From NCBI GenBank assembly GCA_022402445.1, contig JAKRSF010000004.1, positions 187,858 through 251,857 of the forward strand: DNA of 64,000 nucleotides. The letters are read 5' to 3'. The notes beneath the pieces are model-generated. The model was not told the origin of the DNA and ran no database searches. It was given only the letters and a program-made list of their open reading frames with translations. The stretch is from Cyanobacteriota bacterium (GTDB taxonomy: Bacteria > Cyanobacteriota > Cyanobacteriia > CACIAM-69d). A program made the position numbers and the translations under genes. Below, in pieces: positions 22,483 to 32,786 of this stretch. Numbering within the stretch: the stretch's first letter is position 1; the number at the start of each line of letters is the position of its first letter.

Positions 22483-25400
22483 CTAGGACGGCATATGGGC
22501 CTGCCGCAGGGGAATGAGAATGCGAAACTCCGTCCCTTCGCCTATTTGGGACTCACAAATCAACTGGCCCCCGTGGTTTTCCGTCACCACCTGGTAGCTA
22601 ATGGACAGGCCCAGGCCCGTGCCCTTGCCCACGGGTTTGGTGGTAAAGAACGGGTCAAACAGCCGCGATCGCGCCCCCTCGGGAATCCCCGGCCCATTGT
22701 CGCGGATCGAAATCATCACCCACTCATCCCCCGATTGCAGGGCCGTTTCGATCGTGATGCGCCCGCGCGATCGCGCCCCATCCGCCCCCCCATCCCGCGC
22801 CGCGATCGCCTCAGCATGTTCATCGATCGCATCGATCGCATTGGCCAGCACATTCATAAACACCTGGTTGAGCTTGCCGGGATAGCAATCCACCAGGGGC
22901 AATGGTCCATACTCGCGCTGCACCTCGATCGCCGCGCGATCGCCGCGCCCCTTCAGGCGATTGTTCAAAATCGTCAGGGTACTGTCGAGGCCCTCATGGA
23001 TATCCGCCGCCTTCATTTCCGCCTCATCCATGTGGGAAAAGGTCCGCAGGGACGTGACGATTTCCTTGATGCGATCGGCCCCGCTCTGCATCGACGCCAG
23101 CACCTTGGGCAGATCCTCTTCGAGGAACTCCAGCTCAATCGCCTCGATCTCCTCCGCAATGTCCGGCGGCGGCTCCGGCAGCACCGCCCGGTACATCTCC
23201 AGCAGGCGGATCAAATCCTCACAGTAGAGCCGCACATGGTCCAAATTGCCGTAGATGAAATTCACCGGGTTATTGATCTCGTGGGCCACCCCCGCCACCA
23301 ACTGCCCCAGGCTCGACATTTTTTCCGTCTGCACGAGCTGGGCCTGGGTGCGCTTGCGATCCTCAAGGGCTTCCGCGAGGCGCGCCGCGTGGGCCTGCTG
23401 TTCCGCCGCCCGTTCCTGCATTTGGGCAAATAAAAAGGCTTGGTTCAGGGCGATCGCGATTTGCCCCAACACCCCCTGGATCAGTTTCACGTCCTCCGTC
23501 TGCCAGCGCTGGGGCTGATAGCAGCCGCAGGAGATGATCACAATCCGGCCATCGTGCATGGCGGCGGGCACCACCAGAATGGAGCGGTAGCCGCCGGTCT
23601 GTAGGGCGGCGCGGTATTGCTCATCGGGGCAGTCGTCGAGATCGTCATAGCGCAACGTCTCGAGCCGCAGCAGTTGGGCCGCCACTTCCCCGAAGATTTC
23701 CGCTGGATAGTAGCCCGTCAGGTCCGGCAGGTGCTCGCGGCGGGCTTCCCATTCCACATGCCAGCGGGGCTCGTCACCGGGGAGGTACCAGGCGAAATGG
23801 ACGCGATCGAGCCCCATCAACTGTCGAATTTCTGAAAGGGCTAGGGCGATCGTTTCCGCTGGCGGCGTGGCGATCGAGGCGCGGATCCGGCTGGTGAGGC
23901 GGTTATAGAGCCGCTCCCGTTCCACCTGCCGCTGCAATCGCTGGCGGGAAATTTCGAGGGCCCTGGCGGCGGATTTGCGATCGCTGATGTCCCGCACGAT
24001 CGCCTGGAGGATGGTGCGATCGACCACCTGCACCGCCGTCAGGGCCACCTCCGCCTCGAAGGGGGTGCCATCGAGCCGCTGGTGGAGCCATTCAAAGGTG
24101 CAGCTTCCGTTGGTGAAAGCCTGTTGGATATAGTCAGCGGCGGCTTGCTCCGAGGGGCGTCCGTCCGGCTGGTGGCTGGGGGAAACATCGGCGGGACTGG
24201 TGCCGATGAGATCGCTGGCGTCCTTGCAACCGAAGAGTTTGATTGCCGCCGCGTTGCAGTGTTCAAAGCGCCCATCGGAGATGAAAAGGACGGAGTAGAT
24301 ATTTGAGTCAAACAGCGCCTGGAAGACGCGGTTCGATTCCGCGAGCTGCGCCCGCGATCGCTCCAAAGCCTCCAAGGTGGCCTTATCCTGCGTGATGTCC
24401 CGGTGGGTGGCCATGTGCCCAATGATCTGTCCGGTGCGATCGACGATCGCGTCCGTCCGCACAAACACCGGAAACACCTCCCCATTCGCCTTGCGGTGCT
24501 CCGTTTCCCCGATCCAGGACTCGCCCGTCTGCATCTGGGCGCGCATAACCTCCAGATCCTGGGGATTGGTGAAGACGGCGGGAATGTCGCCAGCGGCGAT
24601 GAACTCCTCCAGGGACTCGAAGCCGTAGAGTTTTAGAAAACTGGGGTTGAGGTAGGTGGCGCGCCCCACCAGGGGATCGGCCATGCCGATGGCGTCGCTG
24701 GAGCTTTCGACGGCGTGCTTGAAGCGCAGCAGATCTAGCTCGACGGCCCGCTGGTCGTTGATGTCCATGAGGGTGCCGTCGAGCCAGAGGACGTTACCGT
24801 CATCGTCGTAGGCGGCGCGGCCCTTTTCGTAGATCCAGCCGAGGCTGCCGTCGGCCCGCTGGACGCGATATTCGAGGCTGTAGCTTTGGCCGGCGCGGAT
24901 GGCGATGGTGACGGTTTGGCTGACGCTGGCGCGATCGTCCGGGTGGATGAGGTCGCCCATGGAGCGGGTGGCCCCTGGACTGGTGAAGTCGGCGGCGGGA
25001 TAGCCCGTGAGCCGTTCGATCGCGTCGCTGATGTAGAGCATGGTCCAGTGCTCATCGAGCAGGCAGCGATAGATGGCCCCCGGTACGCTATCGACGAGGG
25101 TGCGGAAGCGGGTTTCGCTCGCTTGCAGGGAGGCGGTGGCGGCCCGGAGGTTGGAGATGTCGCGGGCGATGGTGGAGAAAAATTCGACGGTGCCCTGGCG
25201 ATCGCGGTGGGCAATGAGCACCTGGGAGACGGGAATGGTGGTGCCGTCGATGCGATGGAATTCCCCCTCGCCCCGCCAGAGGCCCGTGGCGATCGCGATC
25301 GGCAACTGCTCATGCTCCATGGCGGCGACCCCCTCTGGCCCCAGGAGCTCTTCCCAATCGAGGGGCCGCTCCCGCATGGGGTGGGGATGGGTGGCTAGGG

Positions 25401-25950
25401 GGATCTCGTCCTCCGAAAGCCCCAGGAGCGATCGCAGGGCCGGATTGAGGTAGGTGGCGCGCCCCGCCGCATCAAACAGCCCCACAAAATCCGGCGTCGC
25501 TTCTAACAATTCAAAGGCCCGTTCCCGCTCCCAGGCGGTGCGCCGCGCTTCGGTGACATCGCGCCCGGTCACCAGGAGGAGATCGCCCTGTTCAGTGCGG
25601 GCAAAGGTGCAGCGCAGCCAGCGGTATTGGCCCCCCTGGCAACGGTAGCGATTTTCTAGGGGGGCTAGCCGCTCCCCCGCCGCCACCCGCGCGATCGCTT
25701 GGCCAAAGGCGGCCTGCTCGTCGGGGTGGATCAACTCCCCCAGGGGCATCTGCTGCAACGCTTCCGGCGATCGCCCCAGCAGATCCGCCCAGGCCCCATT
25801 GCCCATCAGCAGCGTACCCGACAAATCCAGCGTCGCCAGGAGATGGCCACTGCGCTCGAACAACTGCCCCCAATCCGACCCAAAGGGGTGCATTTTGGTC
25901 ATATCCCCAGGCGCGTGCCCATCAGTAGTACTGCTGTCTGGAACGGTCAT
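22483..25950 (-). CDS. Multi-PAS/GAF sensor histidine kinase
   Basis: A 1155-residue soluble kinase with no clear membrane segment. It has about five PAS domains (roughly 30-135, 145-270, 285-400, 405-525 and 540-660), a GAF domain (690-840), and a coiled coil. The DHp domain carries His890 in [19 protein letters not shown], and the ATPase domain has the N box [22 protein letters not shown] and [19 protein letters not shown] is the HisKA-like type common in cyanobacterial PAS kinases. No receiver domain or response regulator gene is adjacent, so the partner is elsewhere. Ligands of the PAS and GAF domains cannot be read. Confidence 0.9.
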
Positions 25951-26849: not shown

Positions 26850-27140
26850 TTAGTCATTGTCACCGCCGTTGCCATCGTTATCGTCGTCCGAGTCCCCATC
26901 CCCGTCCTCTTCGTCATCCCCATCATCGCCATCGCCGTCTTCATCCATGCCGGCATCCGGAGCCGCCCCAGGCCCCTCCACCGGAGGATTCGCCGCCGGA
27001 GGCACATTCGGCGCGGGGGGCGCACCACAACCGGCCCCAACCAGGAGACTAACCGCCGCGATCAGGGCCAGGAGGGGCTGCCCTTGCAGCAGCATTCGGA
27101 GCAGGGCCAGGGGAGAGCGAAAGGTGGGCATGGCAGACAC
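26850..27140 (-). CDS. Small lipoprotein with Asp/Gly-rich acidic tail
   Basis: A 96-residue product with a hydrophobic signal (residues 22-37), a lipobox SLLVGAGC with Cys38, a Pro/Ala-rich spacer (39-63), and a tail of Asp, Gly, Glu and Asn (65-96). Residues 66-77 read DEDGDGDDGDDE, matching the EF-hand loop consensus at positions 1, 3, 5, 6 and 12 but lacking the hydrophobic residue at 8. Calcium or other cation binding is possible. The tail is encoded by GAT/GAC-type triplets that may expand or contract. It is the last gene of a same-strand run from 32.8 kb. Confidence 0.6.
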   Translation of the reverse strand: MSAMPTFRSPLALLRMLLQGQPLLALIAAVSLLVGAGCGAPPAPNVPPAANPPVEGPGAAPDAGMDEDGDGDDGDDEEDGDGDSDDDNDGNGGDND

Positions 27141-27179
27141 GGAGATTCAAGCTCCAATCAGTGCGGTTAACTAACGGTA

Positions 27180-27409
27180 CTAAACCAGGATCTTAGCAAA
27201 CCCCAAAGCATTGCCGCGATCGTCAACTCCATCCTTAGCAAAAGCGAAATAATTTTGAGGAAAACCACCCTGGCAATGACGGACCCTATCGATGGTCAGA
27301 ATTAGTGGATGTCTTGAAATTTCTGACGCGAGCAACCCAATGGGGAATCCTCCGAAGCGATCGCCCTTGCCGGTGTATGCCAAACTCCAAGAATCGATGC
27401 CGTTAAACC
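27180..27409 (-). other. Open frame with protein-like composition, possible gene remnant
   Basis: After the cyclase stop, another minus frame stays open to 27180, reading SWSLAYTGKGDRFGGFPIGL, then HPLILTIDRVRHCQGGFPQN and a C-terminal ALGFAKILV. It has no own start outside the cyclase gene and no recognised family. It may be the tail of a decayed gene or chance. Confidence 0.25.
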
Positions 27410-28678
27410 CTAAATCCAAAAATCTTCGCCGCACCAGCACCATAACTCCACCGGACACCGCTTTCCCTTCGCTTGAATGGGCGGCAATTTTCGACAGCAA
27501 CTTTGCAACGCAGTGGGCAGTTGCCGATGGGCATTGTCCGATAAATATAAAGAATCCGCCGGAGTTGCCCCTTCAATCCGCTTCGCCGTATTCACCGTAT
27601 CGCCGATCGCCGTATAGGTTCGTACCCCTTCACTGCCAAATAGCCCCTCCACCACCGGGCCATAGTGCAATCCACAGCCTGCCCCCAGGTGCTCTGTCGC
27701 CAAGATTGTCTGCGCCGCCCGCTGCATTGCCACCGCTGCCCGTAGCGCTTCCGACAAATCGGGATAGATAACCATCACCTCATCCGCCGTGAACGCCACC
27801 CGTAAGGGCTGATAGGCCGCCGCCTCCGGTTCCACGACCTGATAGTAGCGATTGAGCAATTGGGCCACTCGTTCCGGTGGGGCTGCCTCGCACCAAGTTG
27901 TGAATCCCCGAATGTCCATGAATATGATCGCCCGCTCCACCCGCTGAAATTTCAACGCTTCTGGATTCGCGATCGCCGAAGTCACCACATGATTACCCAT
28001 CCCCCACTGGGCCAAATCTCGCAACGTTGCGGCAGTTTCTTGGGTTTTTTCCTGCTGCTTGGCGAGCTGTAGCGACTGCAAGCCCATCAACGCACCCAAA
28101 AAAACCAGCGCCGAAAATAAAAAACCGTGGCTAGCCGCCGTAAAAAACTCTTGAATATAAACCGGCGTCACCATCACCTGATCAGCGGTGGCCGTTGCAA
28201 TCAAATAGGCTACCCACACCATCACCGTCCGCACGATGCTCTCCAGCGGCAAGAGATAGGGGGACCAGCGGGGCATCCAATGCCATCGCATACCCTGGGA
28301 AAGGGCAATGGAAAGGCAAAATCCCCAGAGCATCAAATGGCTGGGACTCTCGAAAAAGCTCCAGCCATCCGTCGGCAAATCAATCAAGGTATAGAGACCA
28401 GGCCCAATGAGATTGCCCCAGAAGTGATGAAACTTACGATGGGTCAAACACCAAGCCTGTAAGGTAAATGCCCCAATCAAAGACCAGTCTGTCACGTCAT
28501 TGATCGAAGCATACCAACCATTATTGGCTATATCTGACAGGGTTTTCAGGATCAGAAAGTGCCCGCTATTGCCCCAAAGCTCTTGCCAAAATGCTTGCCA
28601 AGGAGTTCCATGAAGTCGCCGATCTAGGAGATGATCTAAATTAAGATCCGTTATTTTTGGGGGTAAATGGTCGGTCAT
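27410..28678 (-). CDS. Membrane-anchored class III nucleotide cyclase homologue, altered active site
   Basis: From the ATG at 28678 (MTDHLPPK) the product has 422 residues. Several hydrophobic segments lie in the first 200 residues, then a short coiled coil (LAKQQEKTQETAATL) and a class III cyclase domain. The first metal Asp255 is in FMDIRGFTTWCE and the second, Asp299, in FTADEVMVIYP; GDTVNTAKRIE supplies later conserved Asp, Asn and Arg. The substrate-specifying Lys and the Gly before the second Asp, usually KFxGD, are both Ala (AFTAD). It may be inactive or of changed specificity. A start at 28750 overlapping the PepSY gene is possible. Confidence 0.75.
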   Translation of the reverse strand: MTDHLPPKITDLNLDHLLDRRLHGTPWQAFWQELWGNSGHFLILKTLSDIANNGWYASINDVTDWSLIGAFTLQAWCLTHRKFHHFWGNLIGPGLYTLIDLPTDGWSFFESPSHLMLWGFCLSIALSQGMRWHWMPRWSPYLLPLESIVRTVMVWVAYLIATATADQVMVTPVYIQEFFTAASHGFLFSALVFLGALMGLQSLQLAKQQEKTQETAATLRDLAQWGMGNHVVTSAIANPEALKFQRVERAIIFMDIRGFTTWCEAAPPERVAQLLNRYYQVVEPEAAAYQPLRVAFTADEVMVIYPDLSEALRAAVAMQRAAQTILATEHLGAGCGLHYGPVVEGLFGSEGVRTYTAIGDTVNTAKRIEGATPADSLYLSDNAHRQLPTALQSCCRKLPPIQAKGKRCPVELWCWCGEDFWI

Positions 28679-28724
28679 AGGCTTCGGCTTATGGGTGCTG
28701 CTTAGATGCACAGCCCGACCATCC

Positions 28725-29024
28725 CTAGCGCACTCCCAAGTCTTTGGCATGTCGCCTAGGTTTAAACCATCCGAGCATTGAAACCCCCGTCATCAATAGA
28801 GCCAGCAGGCCCAGGCCGTTCAGGAGGGGATAGACGGCCTCTAGGTGGAATAGTTCACCTGTATGAATATCCATTAGCAGTCCGCGCTTAAAAAACGGCA
28901 CGTTCCATTCTGAGACAAGGGTGGCCAACATGCCTGAAATGACGGTCATTGTCAGGGGCAGCAGCGCGATCGCCGCGATGAACCGGTGGAACTTACGATG
29001 GTATTTCTGGAAGCTTTTGAGCAT
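28725..29024 (-). CDS. PepSY-type two-helix membrane protein
   Basis: A 99-residue protein with an Arg/His/Lys-rich start (KYHRKFHRFIAAIAL) and helices at about 15-37 and 66-86, joined by a short external loop with HTGELFHLEAVYPLLNG. This layout matches the minimal PepSY-associated membrane proteins that often accompany iron or other metal uptake or respiratory genes. It ends in RRHAKDLGVR. It precedes the cyclase gene by 46 bases and follows the EfeO-like lipoprotein gene on the same strand. Confidence 0.7.
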   Translation of the reverse strand: MLKSFQKYHRKFHRFIAAIALLPLTMTVISGMLATLVSEWNVPFFKRGLLMDIHTGELFHLEAVYPLLNGLGLLALLMTGVSMLGWFKPRRHAKDLGVR

Positions 29025-29106
29025 CAGGGATCAAACCTTTGACCAAAACAATGACCTGAACCGAGCGACGTGAAGCGGCCGGTAAAACGGTGGATGGCTG
29101 CTTTCC

Positions 29107-29604
29107 CTAGTCCACCTGATTGATCGCCCCTTCCAAATCCGTCAAAGCCATCAGGGTCTTTTTCTGATCCAGATTATCGCCTAGCTCCGCCTTCACCGTA
29201 TCGATCGCATCCTCAATCGCCCCATAGACATCAGGATTTTTTTCCTTGATCGGATCCTCGACGTCCTCCCAGGCTGCCTCAAATTGTTCAAATTTTGCGG
29301 CGGCTTGATCTCCGTCATTAGTATCAACGGCCGCGCGGGTTTCATCCACCAATGCCTTCAAGGTTCCGACGCCAGAATCGGTGGCCGCCGGTTCATCGGA
29401 AGGAATGGCCGCAGGGGTGGCCGCAGGAGTACTGGCAGGGGTGGTTGTAGGGGCAGCTCCGGGCGCAACAGTTGCCGTGGGTTGGGCATTACAGCCGGTA
29501 GCGATCGCGGCGCAGAGCGTGGCCATCAATGCCAGGGATAACAACCCTTTTTGCCGTGTCTGAACCGTGACGGAAGAAGGGGAAATGATCGATGTCAAGA
29601 CCAT
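29107..29604 (-). CDS. Lipoprotein with EfeO-like helical domain
   Basis: The ATG at 29604 has GGAG seven bases upstream and is preferred to the one 11 codons earlier. The signal peptide ends in a lipobox AIATGC, and a Thr/Ala/Pro-rich linker follows. Residues 75-165 are helical and acidic: KFEQFEAAWEDVEDPIKEKN, then PDVYGAIEDAIDTVKAEL. This pattern resembles the helical domain found in EfeO-like proteins and before some FTR1 iron permeases; the match is by eye. No permease is adjacent. It may be a periplasmic metal-binding or sensor accessory. Confidence 0.55.
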   Translation of the reverse strand: MVLTSIISPSSVTVQTRQKGLLSLALMATLCAAIATGCNAQPTATVAPGAAPTTTPASTPAATPAAIPSDEPAATDSGVGTLKALVDETRAAVDTNDGDQAAAKFEQFEAAWEDVEDPIKEKNPDVYGAIEDAIDTVKAELGDNLDQKKTLMALTDLEGAINQVD

Positions 29605-29806
29605 GGAAGACTCCGAGGTGAACGGGTGTTGAATCAAGGGAAGAAAAGCTGAAAACGTTGCGAGAAGGTCTGATGATGTTGGTCCCTGGGCCTCTTCTTA
29701 TTTGAGGACAGGGTTGAACGGAGTAGGAATGGCGGAATGTTTTGATCGGACCAGGGTGGGAATCTTACGAATTCTGCAAAATGCTGCCGAAAAACTGGAG
29801 AATACA

Positions 29807-30319
29807 CTACTGCCATCGGCGCTCCCCGGCCCAAGGCGGCGGCCCCGATGGCCTGCGCATCTCCACCGTTTCCCCATTGGCCAGCTTCACCCAAAAGGCA
29901 TCGAGCTCCCCATCATCCCACTCCCCTTCGACGGTTAACTGATCGCCGATCGCCACGGGAATATCGCGCCACCAACGCGGTCCCGCATCCACCCGATAGC
30001 GTCGCCCATTGGCCTCCACGATCCATTCGTTTTCATCCCGCTCGCCGAACCGCACCACGCGCCCGGTAATTTGAATAACGGGATCGTCATCCCAGTCATA
30101 CCAATCGTCATCTTTGGCGCGATCGCCCGTCACCATCTCACCGGTCGCCGCTTCCGTGAGAATCGCCGGTTCTGGATTGAGGTTAATGGGCCGGGAAACC
30201 AGGGCGACCGACTGGGCCGGGGCCGTGCGGAATTCTGACAGGGCAACGCTGGCGAGGGCCGGTAGGGAGGCCAGCGCACCGACGGCTAGCCAGGACAAAA
30301 AGGGCTTTGGGGTAGGCAT
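29807..30319 (-). CDS. Exported OB-fold-like protein with acidic Trp/Asp patch
   Basis: A 170-residue protein with a signal peptide (hydrophobic 8-28, possible cleavage after APA near 35). Residues 70-79 read DDDWYDWDDD. After that come alternating strands (IQITGRVVRFGER, WIVEANGRRYRVDAGPRWW, IGDQLTVEGEWDDGELDAFW) in the order of a small OB fold like those of exported YgiW/YdeI-type proteins. The gene lies between the kinase at 30452-32143 and the EfeO-like lipoprotein. A periplasmic cation- or ligand-binding role is inferred from the acidic patch and location. Confidence 0.6.
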   Translation of the reverse strand: MPTPKPFLSWLAVGALASLPALASVALSEFRTAPAQSVALVSRPINLNPEPAILTEAATGEMVTGDRAKDDDWYDWDDDPVIQITGRVVRFGERDENEWIVEANGRRYRVDAGPRWWRDIPVAIGDQLTVEGEWDDGELDAFWVKLANGETVEMRRPSGPPPWAGERRWQ

Positions 30320-30451
30320 GGTAAGGATTCCTAAAATGACTCCTCAGCAGTTGCGAATGGGTTCAGATTAGGAAAAGAAAATGACAAAAAGATGACGGCC
30401 CCGAGGGCATGTCCCTACGGCCTATGGCTAGGGGCAAACGGATGGGGGCTT

Positions 30452-32143
30452 TCACGCGATCGCGGCCTTGCCGGTGGGGGCCGGTAAGGGCAGGGTGACG
30501 GTGAAGCAACTGCCTTGGTGGGGCTGGCTCTGGACGCTGATCTGGCCCTGGTGGGATTGGGCGATCGCCTGGGCAATGGATAGCCCCAGACCGGAGCCCC
30601 CCTGCCGGTGGGAGCGCACCTGATCCGCCCGCCAGAGGCGATCAAAAATGTGGGGCAAGTCGGCGGGGGCAATGCCGATGCCTGTGTCTTGGATCTCGAT
30701 GCGCACCCGGCGATCGCGGCGGTTCGGGGCGATCGTCAGGGACACCCGACCCCCCTCGGGGGTGTATTTCAGGGCATTGTCCAGCAAATTGCCAAAGAGC
30801 CGCCACAGCAGCAACGGCTCCCCCAGCACCACCGTTGGCGGCAGATCGCCCACCAGATCAATCCGCTGGACGGCGGCGCGATCGCCGTAGGTCTCCATCA
30901 GCGACTCCAGCAACTCCGCCAGATCGAGGGGCTGAACCTGGTGGACCACAGCACCGGGCGTATCCTGGCGCGCCAGCAGCAGCAAATCCTCCACCAATTG
31001 GGTCATCTGGTCCGTGGCATTGTGGATGGCGGCGAGCTTGGCCACATCCGCCGGATCAATTCGCTCCGGGTGGGACTGCATCACCTCAACGGAGGTGCGG
31101 ATGGCCGTGAGGGGGCCGCGTAACTCATGGGAGGCGTCGGCGGTGAACTGCCGCAGCTTACGGAAACTGGCTTCGATGGGCCGCAGGGACTGGCGCGTGA
31201 GCCACAGGCCCCCCACCAGACTCAGGCCGATCGCGAGGCTAGAGCCGATCGCCAACCCCTGGCCCAACTGGCGGATGGCGCGGTTGATCGGTTCAATGGA
31301 TTCCGTAACGCGCACATAGCCCCGCAGACGAGGGGGTTGGTGATCGCGATCGTAGAGCGGTGCCGTGAGGGTGCGCAGTTGCTGCTCCTGAACGATCACA
31401 CCCTGGGGACGAGTGATGGGGTCCAGGGGCCAGTGGGGAAACAGGGTGCCTTGGCGGGCTAGCAAAACACCCCCGGCGTTGAACCATTCCACCCCCTGAT
31501 CCGGTTGCTGTAGGTTCTGCCAAGGAATGTCCAAATCCCCGTCGTTATCTAGGCGGGGCTGCAATTCCTGCCGCTGGTCAAAGAAGCGATCGTCGAGGAA
31601 GGGGGCGCGATCGCCGGGGGACCGCATGGCCTTGACGAGTTTTTGATGGGGGTCGTATTCGTATGCCTCTTCTTCGTCCTCGTCATCATCATCATCGTCA
31701 TCGTCCTGGGCGGCGGCGGGATTGGTGCGATCGCGCCCCTCCACAAACTGCTCCTCATATTCCTCAGCGATTTCCTCCAGGCTGTGGCCCGCCGCCTGGG
31801 CGAGGAGGAGAAGCTGCCGATCAAGCTGTTCGTAGAGGCTGTGGATCAGGAACTCGATCGCCACCACCGACCCAAGGCCCACCACCGTCACCATTACCAG
31901 GAGAAAAGACCGCAGCAGCCGTTGCCGCAGGGCCTGGAATTGGGCGGCTTCGGCGGTGCGGCCCGTCGCGATGGGTGGGAGCTTTGCCCCGATGGGTGGG
32001 AGCTTTGCCCCGATCTCGCGGTCCCCTGGGCGGGCGGCGGCAGTGGTGGCGCTGGAGTTAGCCGTGGGGCTGAAACCGCGACGATGCCTAAGGACTCGGG
32101 TCCAGATCCGGCAGTTGTGGATGAAGTCGGTAGCCCATGCCAT
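30452..32143 (-). CDS. Membrane sensor histidine kinase with poly-Asp periplasmic loop
   Basis: A 563-residue kinase with helices at about 79-101 and 297-315 that enclose a roughly 195-residue periplasmic domain. Residues 147-159 of that domain read DDDDDDDDEDEEE, likely a cation-binding patch. HAMP-like sequence follows, then the DHp His339 in FTADASHELRGPLTAIRTS, N box NLLDNALKYTPEGG, DTGIGIAPADLPHIFDR and GSGLGLSIA. The cytoplasmic N-terminus carries a 21-base-repeat doublet (IGAKLPP twice, 44-57). The ATG at 32143 overlaps the regulator gene by 56 bases, so translation is probably coupled. Paired with the regulator at 32088-32786. Confidence 0.9.
   Translation of the reverse strand: MAWATDFIHNCRIWTRVLRHRRGFSPTANSSATTAAARPGDREIGAKLPPIGAKLPPIATGRTAEAAQFQALRQRLLRSFLLVMVTVVGLGSVVAIEFLIHSLYEQLDRQLLLLAQAAGHSLEEIAEEYEEQFVEGRDRTNPAAAQDDDDDDDDEDEEEAYEYDPHQKLVKAMRSPGDRAPFLDDRFFDQRQELQPRLDNDGDLDIPWQNLQQPDQGVEWFNAGGVLLARQGTLFPHWPLDPITRPQGVIVQEQQLRTLTAPLYDRDHQPPRLRGYVRVTESIEPINRAIRQLGQGLAIGSSLAIGLSLVGGLWLTRQSLRPIEASFRKLRQFTADASHELRGPLTAIRTSVEVMQSHPERIDPADVAKLAAIHNATDQMTQLVEDLLLLARQDTPGAVVHQVQPLDLAELLESLMETYGDRAAVQRIDLVGDLPPTVVLGEPLLLWRLFGNLLDNALKYTPEGGRVSLTIAPNRRDRRVRIEIQDTGIGIAPADLPHIFDRLWRADQVRSHRQGGSGLGLSIAQAIAQSHQGQISVQSQPHQGSCFTVTLPLPAPTGKAAIA
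31973..32014 (-). repeat. In-frame 21-base repeat doublet, copy 2
   Basis: Two identical 21-base units (plus-strand CGATGGGTGGGAGCTTTGCC plus C) encode IGAKLPP twice in the cytoplasmic N-terminus of the kinase. Copy 1 lies at 22165-22206 in an unrelated exported protein, with the downstream GATCTCG also shared. Confidence 0.87.
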
Positions 32144-32786
32144 AGCGCGTTTCGATTGCGGATTTAGGTGCGCCCGCGTCCGTCAGTTTTTGGCGCAGGC
32201 GGCGGATATGGGCGGTGATGGCCTCCTCCGTGGGGGGCTCATCAAAATCCCACAGCTTGTCGAGGATGCTGGCGCGATCAAAGGTGCGGCCCGGATGGCG
32301 GAGAAACAATTCTAGGATGGCGTATTCCTTCGGGGAAAGGGCCAACAACTGCTGCCGGTAGGTCACTTCGCACGATCGCGGGTCCAGATGCAGCGCCCCC
32401 CAACTGAGGACCGGGCTCGCCGCGATCGCCCCCCGCCGCAGCAGCGCCCGCACCCGCGCCAGAAATTCCGACAGATCAAAGGGCTTCACGACATAATCAT
32501 CAGCCCCCGCATCCAGGCCAGCCACCTTATCGCCACTGGTATCGCGGCCCGTCAGCAGCACAATGGGCACCGTTTGCCCCGCCCGCCGCAGGTGGCGACA
32601 CAGATCCACACCGCTCAGCTCCGGCAGCATCCAATCCACAATCAGCAGATCGTAGGGGAATGCCTGGGCCAAATCGAGGCCCGATCGCCCCTCATGGGCC
32701 ACATCCACCGTGTAGCGGCGATCGCGCAGGGCCTCCGCCAGGGGCTGCAAAATGCGATCGTCATCCTCCACAATCAAAATCCGCAC
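32088..32786 (-). CDS. OmpR/PhoB-family response regulator
   Basis: A 232-residue regulator: receiver domain with Asp8/9, phospho-acceptor Asp51 (LIVDWMLPELSGVDLC), Thr79 and Lys101 (VVKPFD), then a winged-helix DNA-binding domain (about 130-225) with LSPKEYAILELFLRHPGRTF and TRYGMGYRL. The GTG start at 32786 follows a GGAGGGGCAGG purine tract and gives VRILIVEDD, the normal family beginning; ATGs further upstream add unconserved sequence. It is transcribed first, ahead of its overlapping kinase. Targets could include the exported genes downstream, but no binding-site repeats were identified. Confidence 0.93.
   Translation of the reverse strand: MRILIVEDDDRILQPLAEALRDRRYTVDVAHEGRSGLDLAQAFPYDLLIVDWMLPELSGVDLCRHLRRAGQTVPIVLLTGRDTSGDKVAGLDAGADDYVVKPFDLSEFLARVRALLRRGAIAASPVLSWGALHLDPRSCEVTYRQQLLALSPKEYAILELFLRHPGRTFDRASILDKLWDFDEPPTEEAITAHIRRLRQKLTDAGAPKSAIETRYGMGYRLHPQLPDLDPSP

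Follow-up and report, generated by a model that had tools for sequence, protein, structure and literature searches.

The best family match for the two-component pair analysed here is RppA/RppB, known in Synechocystis as the nickel/redox system NrsR/NrsS, which likewise combines an OmpR-type regulator with a membrane kinase; NrsRS senses nickel and controls nrsBACD (PMC4284471). Exported BOF/OB-fold proteins are targets of other OmpR-type pairs, as with ygiW (visP) and PreAB/QseBC, where Salmonella PreA activates the adjoining ygiW gene (PMC2653508), and with VC1639 of V. cholerae, which activates VCA0732 under polymyxin (PMC5636140). The Synechocystis copper system copMRS is again a compact autoregulated pair with a periplasmic metal-binding partner, and its CopR site reads TTCAT-N4-5-TTCAT (PMC4182526). 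PepSY_TM proteins known so far serve in ferri-siderophore reduction or in support of copper enzymes (PMC13038864, PMC13001220). The ferri-siderophore reductases FoxB, HiuB and the CrpH family have conserved-histidine membrane hairpins, and in FoxB such residues ligate two haems (PMC13038864). No single part of the locus described below is new in kind; the combination of parts, its two regulatory boxes and an apparent switch between them seem not to have been described. Literature searches gave no description of the gene set, as the first-pass annotation had supposed when it could not search, nor of the GTCAT repeat, nor of PepSY proteins with two-component systems in cyanobacteria.

The locus lies in a 64,000-nucleotide window, the whole stretch of DNA analysed, from contig JAKRSF010000004.1 of a Cyanobacteriota bacterium (GCA_022402445.1). 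All seven open reading frames that had been read head to tail on its minus strand, with regulator and kinase overlapping, are present as claimed. The run begins with an OmpR/PhoB-type, RppA-like response regulator (RR, 32088..32786) and a sensor histidine kinase with an RppB-like core (HK, 30452..32143), whose ATG overlaps the regulator stop. These are followed by an exported OB-fold protein of YgiW/BOF-like type (29807..30319), a lipoprotein with a C-terminal four-helix bundle (29107..29604; alternative TTG start at 29637), a two-helix PepSY_TM protein (28725..29024), a membrane-anchored class III nucleotide cyclase homologue (27410..28750, with the conserved ATG at 28678 the more likely start) and a lineage-specific lipoprotein with an Asp/Gly tail (26850..27140, lipobox LLVGAGC). 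The regulator/kinase overlap measures 56 bp and is kept, together with the kinase start MAWATDFIHN, in both relatives, the same-family genomes G002 and G004; gaps between the genes 3' of the kinase range from 82 to 269 bp. In G002 and G004 the stretch RR-HK-OB-lipoprotein-PepSY_TM, five of the seven genes, also keeps its order and strand. Of these two same-family loci only that of G002 retains the cyclase, and neither holds an orthologue of the Asp/Gly lipoprotein. Searches with sigma-70 promoter and terminator consensus patterns performed no better than on shuffled sequence. One additional open reading frame (L061:12592-13278), whose N-terminus reads OB-like and which is without a Pfam match, stands between the kinase and OB genes of G002 with a GTCAT box in front. 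Directly downstream of the run in the window, on the same strand, is a large PAS/GAF histidine kinase (22483-25950) outside the conserved set.

Both members of the pair match Pfam domains (PF00072 98.7 bits and PF00486 81.3 bits for the regulator, HATPase_c 109 bits and HisKA 56 bits for the kinase). RppA and RppB are their best NCBIfam matches, though neither reaches the equivalog cut-off: the regulator scores 220.3 bits under a cut-off of 250, and the kinase 261.1 bits under one of 400. Another kinase of the same genome (G000:C1:42823-44136) scores 481 bits against RppB, above the cut-off, and the window kinase ranks third in that genome-wide comparison with 254 bits. Also unlike NrsRS, the pair is not accompanied by recognisable efflux genes of the nrsBACD kind at the module loci read. 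The regulator tree resolves two groups, one OB-linked and of single origin (99/98) and one PepSY-linked (100/99), and the regulators of the window, G002 and G004 (the trio) fall inside the PepSY-linked clade.

That linkage extends well beyond the family. Among 145 relatives, 23 of the 56 best kinase matches have a PepSY_TM gene no more than 7 kb away, where chance would give 0.15 under a model of random gene placement that disregards how the genomes are related. At 11 of the 12 best-scoring places, no more than about 3.2 kb separate the lipoprotein from PepSY_TM. Partners that recur in distant cyanobacteria are the lipoprotein, the membrane cyclase, exported proteins that are acidic or rich in Gly, Glu and Ser (GES), and an Fe(II) dioxygenase. 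Some loci hold the pair with lipoprotein and PepSY_TM (L144-L148), others a simple RR-HK-PepSY_TM arrangement (L149-L152), and still others (L155-L159, L169-L171) the pair with GES-repeat exported proteins, a PiuC/YbiX-type Fe(II) dioxygenase and a tandem PepSY_TM, after which a cyclase of the window family comes next in three distant genomes (L155, L156, L157). At L148:2487-3714 and L173:3509-4066, PepSY-type two-component genes are adjoined by small exported proteins with a PepSY domain, of which one in L148 contains a strongly acidic segment.

Common to these loci is a box, CTTTCC-N4-TCTTTAC, an 11-bp direct repeat. A slightly wider form has 13 matches in 616 kb of both strands of the PepSY loci analysed, all 5' of module genes; this box, like the GTCAT box discussed below, was discovered in loci later used for counting. 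The genes it precedes, whether linked or not, are those of the lipoprotein, PepSY_TM, the GES-repeat and Asp/His-repeat proteins, the cyclase and the regulator. Genome-wide, the exact box also marks unlinked copies: PepSY_TM in G076, the lipoprotein in G077, the cyclase in G129, the regulator itself in G045 and, in G041, an exported Asp/His-repeat protein whose gene lies directly 5' of the cyclase. Since unlinked copies carry the box too, the gene set is best read as the content of a regulon. Some PepSY loci, G028, G088 and L152 among them, lack the exact pattern. The neighbourhood comparison, which would have spoken against the first-pass annotation had no relative kept the run, found it kept within the family and its core recurring across cyanobacteria; both results, with the shared box, back the earlier call of an envelope module that includes a two-component pair.

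Some ten other CTTTCC-type matches stand 5' of genes reading as phycobilisome linkers, so that another regulator would read similar sequence and the box is not unique to the module regulator. At six loci (L246, L251, L253, L255, L256, L260), CTTTCC-N4-TCTTTAC followed by TTTCC/TTACT repeats stands 5' of such linker-like genes. The G-box through which CcaR controls phycobilisome linkers resembles the CTTTCC...TTTAC direct repeat; unlike the CcaR targets, however, the module genes are not antenna genes, and the module regulator presumably belongs to another clade.

The OB protein brings in the second box. Its family profile finds YgiW (1NNX) as the best PDB match (E 6.8e-5) and no other below 0.1, and its AF2 model, a beta barrel of 5-6 strands with core blocks at 88-97 pLDDT, recovers 1NNX at rank 7 in Foldseek (E 1.4e-3); against the NCBIfam stress_OB_fold model it scores 14.2 bits, under the 35-bit cut-off. 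Like members of the BOF/YgiW family it is a small exported OB-fold protein. The cyanobacterial family, in which G86, N97, V110, A112, G113 and P114 are invariant and a PPW motif is present, differs from the ygiW systems in its own invariant VDAGP...PPW signature, in its direct-repeat box and in its partner genes. Many genomes carry the OB gene directly beside another RR-HK pair, most of whose kinases match one with a CHASE3 sensor. The box before OB genes reads GTCAY-N6-GTCAY-N10-TAnnnT, and the window copy, a predicted regulator site and promoter (GTCATCTTTTTGTCAT-N10-TAATCT, 30365..30396), is an 11-bp direct repeat with a -10-like element, 45 bp before the OB start codon. It is the single GTCAT-type match in the window, against 0.03 expected, and the only exact match to the general pattern in the whole genome; G002 and G004 have one each, and in all three genomes the match is 3' of the kinase and 5' of the OB gene or the inserted gene. 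More broadly, 25 of 46 distinct OB genes (a set that includes the loci where the motif was first noticed) have GTCA-N7-GTCA-N10-12-TAnnnT upstream, as do 0 of 180 other module genes and 7 of 886 other open reading frames. Neither this repeat nor the CTTTCC/CTTTAC one is that of copMRS, and CopM is unrelated to the partners found here. At L103, L104, L106 and L109 another small exported protein (MFNLKSSN... type) is encoded divergently from the OB gene, behind a GTCAT box of its own. An FTR1-type iron permease gene adjoins the OB gene in L067 and lies 2.1 kb off in L071; in all, three loci from two genomes (L067, L086, L071) have such genes next to OB or not far from it.

The window lineage has a regulator of the PepSY-linked type and a box of the OB type. 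The CTTTCC box has no match genome-wide in the window genome, G002 or G004, and these three genomes hold no close OB-type regulator, the best matches reaching 46-54% identity; G028, G060 and G144 have both pair types, separately. Of 22 diagnostic regulator positions, 18 show the PepSY-clade state in the trio and 3 that of the OB clade. Its recognition helix, EEAITAHIRRLRQKL, departs from its own clade by T189A, K191T and S/G196R, and position 191 is K in all 22 others. Most simply read, the two regulons were merged in this lineage and its regulator changed its predicted binding preference. We infer that the linked regulator would bind the predicted box before the OB gene, having been respecified through T189A, K191T and S/G196R from a CTTTCC-type to the OB-clade GTCAT-type box. 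E187, E188, H193 and K200 keep the PepSY-clade state, so that any respecification is partial. It may be, and we put this tentatively, that the steps of the rewiring are still readable: the ancestral CTTTCC/CTTTAC box lost genome-wide, the recognition helix changed, the OB gene and GTCAT box of a second pair taken over, and acidic runs gained by sensor and OB protein alike in this one lineage.

The first-pass annotation placed three acidic runs outside the membrane and inferred a cation-sensing envelope module. The kinase and OB runs are real. In the kinase run (residues 147-159, 31667..31705) the most acidic 12-residue segment is D/E at 12 of 12 positions, more than in any other of 63 non-overlapping open reading frames of the window; the run lies between two predicted membrane helices; from hydrophobicity we read it as outside. 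The OB run, an acidic insert at residues 70-79, has 7 of 12 and is joint second. They are, however, private to the window lineage: the kinase run holds 10 of 12 in G002 and G004, where both proteins keep the acidic character without matching at each residue, the remaining kinases of the type have at most 7 of 12, and OB proteins outside the three-genome lineage have no such run. Being restricted to that lineage, the runs cannot define sensing for the whole family.

The PepSY assignment held, by remote homology only. The window protein scores 13.0 bits against PF03929, under the gathering score of 28.8; the tandem homologue of L157 passes with 47.4 bits and aligns to the window-type family at an hhalign probability of 99.75%. 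His13 and His54, candidate haem ligands near either end of the hairpin, are invariant in a 16-row alignment, and tandem forms have four invariant histidines. PepSY_TM profiles had no significant match among PDB sequences, and the comparison with FoxB accordingly draws on the Pfam family, on the histidines and on the literature. The window protein is a candidate haem reductase. Sister loci share with FoxB, HiuB and the CrpH family a PiuC-type partner; the window protein differs from them as a single two-helix hairpin of 99 residues without the large periplasmic PepSY domain, and no TonB receptor was recognised nearby.

The neighbouring lipoprotein had been called EfeO-like, and iron was argued partly from that label, which we have dropped. 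The lipobox GC is invariant in 10 homologues and the AF2 model places helices at 77-162 with about 92 pLDDT, but there is no match to Pfam M75 (PF09375), the hhalign probability with cyanobacterial M75 proteins is 6.5%, and in Foldseek EfeO (7wgu) appears at rank 25 (rmsd 2.9) with PsbQ and designed bundles equal or better; the fold is a common bundle and the argument for iron fails by sequence. Separately, an M75 (imelysin) gene of the window genome adjoins a PiuC/YbiX-type Fe(II) dioxygenase (G000:C13:404829-406785), and several cyanobacterial M75 proteins carry GGEGGEGG repeats similar in composition to the module's GES and Asp/Gly tails.

The cyclase passes PF00211 (48.7 bits, cut-off 21.9) and retains the metal-binding Asp pair and the transition-state Asn/Arg (MDIRGF, TADEV, GDTVNTAKR), while the adenine-selecting Lys position is A, S or T in all nine family members read. 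The likeness of the GES- and Asp/His-repeat regulon proteins to the Asp/Gly lipoprotein is one of composition only.

Taken together, we consider it moderately probable that the module is an autoregulated two-component unit of the cell envelope, iron-leaning and with a respecified regulator, built on a cyanobacterium-wide and previously unnamed core. The kinase would sense a condition outside the inner membrane, probably a metal, iron likeliest, or an iron-linked redox state, and the regulator would then switch on a small set of envelope proteins: the YgiW-like periplasmic OB-fold protein, the helical-bundle lipoprotein, the PepSY_TM protein, the membrane cyclase homologue and the acidic lipoprotein. 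The minimal PepSY_TM protein would probably hold haem between its two conserved histidines and pass electrons across the membrane. PiuC-type dioxygenases accompany PepSY_TM proteins, and it is family knowledge of PepSY_TM proteins, together with PiuC-type partners and FTR1 neighbours, that favours metal handling. Iron is our first choice of signal, before redox or nickel, because of the PepSY_TM histidines, the dioxygenase in sister loci and the FTR1 genes near OB in two genomes. The earlier proposal of cation sensing thus stays plausible, with iron likeliest, on grounds other than EfeO.

Kinship with RppA/RppB counts against iron and would point to nickel or redox, nickel being suggested by that kinship only. 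The pair might then be a mere NrsRS paralogue with ordinary envelope neighbours; given that its scores fall under the family cut-offs, that a better RppB is encoded elsewhere in the genome, and that PepSY_TM and PKHD genes rather than RND efflux genes were recognised among the open reading frames inspected beside module loci, we regard this as quite unlikely. The YgiW match of the OB protein and the precedents in Salmonella and V. cholerae suggest instead an envelope-stress, cationic-peptide or divalent-ion system in which the OB protein is the effector and the acidic runs, present in both kinase and OB protein of one lineage, read Ca/Mg or cationic compounds. This seems unlikely too, since it leaves the PepSY_TM, cyclase and dioxygenase partners unexplained and the acidic run is missing from OB proteins elsewhere. 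That the genes are chance neighbours under unrelated control could appeal to the gaps after the kinase and to the inconstancy of the cyclase and Asp/Gly genes; with recurrence far above chance, and boxes common to unlinked copies as well, it is already disfavoured and very improbable.

Two conserved cyanobacterial regulons of uncharacterised envelope proteins can thus be named, both with a predicted site for their regulator and the second tied to YgiW. The window lineage would offer a concrete case, with testable residues, of a two-component regulator moving from one binding site to another. Should the PepSY_TM protein prove to be a haem reductase, metal handling in cyanobacteria would gain a minimal step of electron transfer through the membrane that is directly under envelope sensing.
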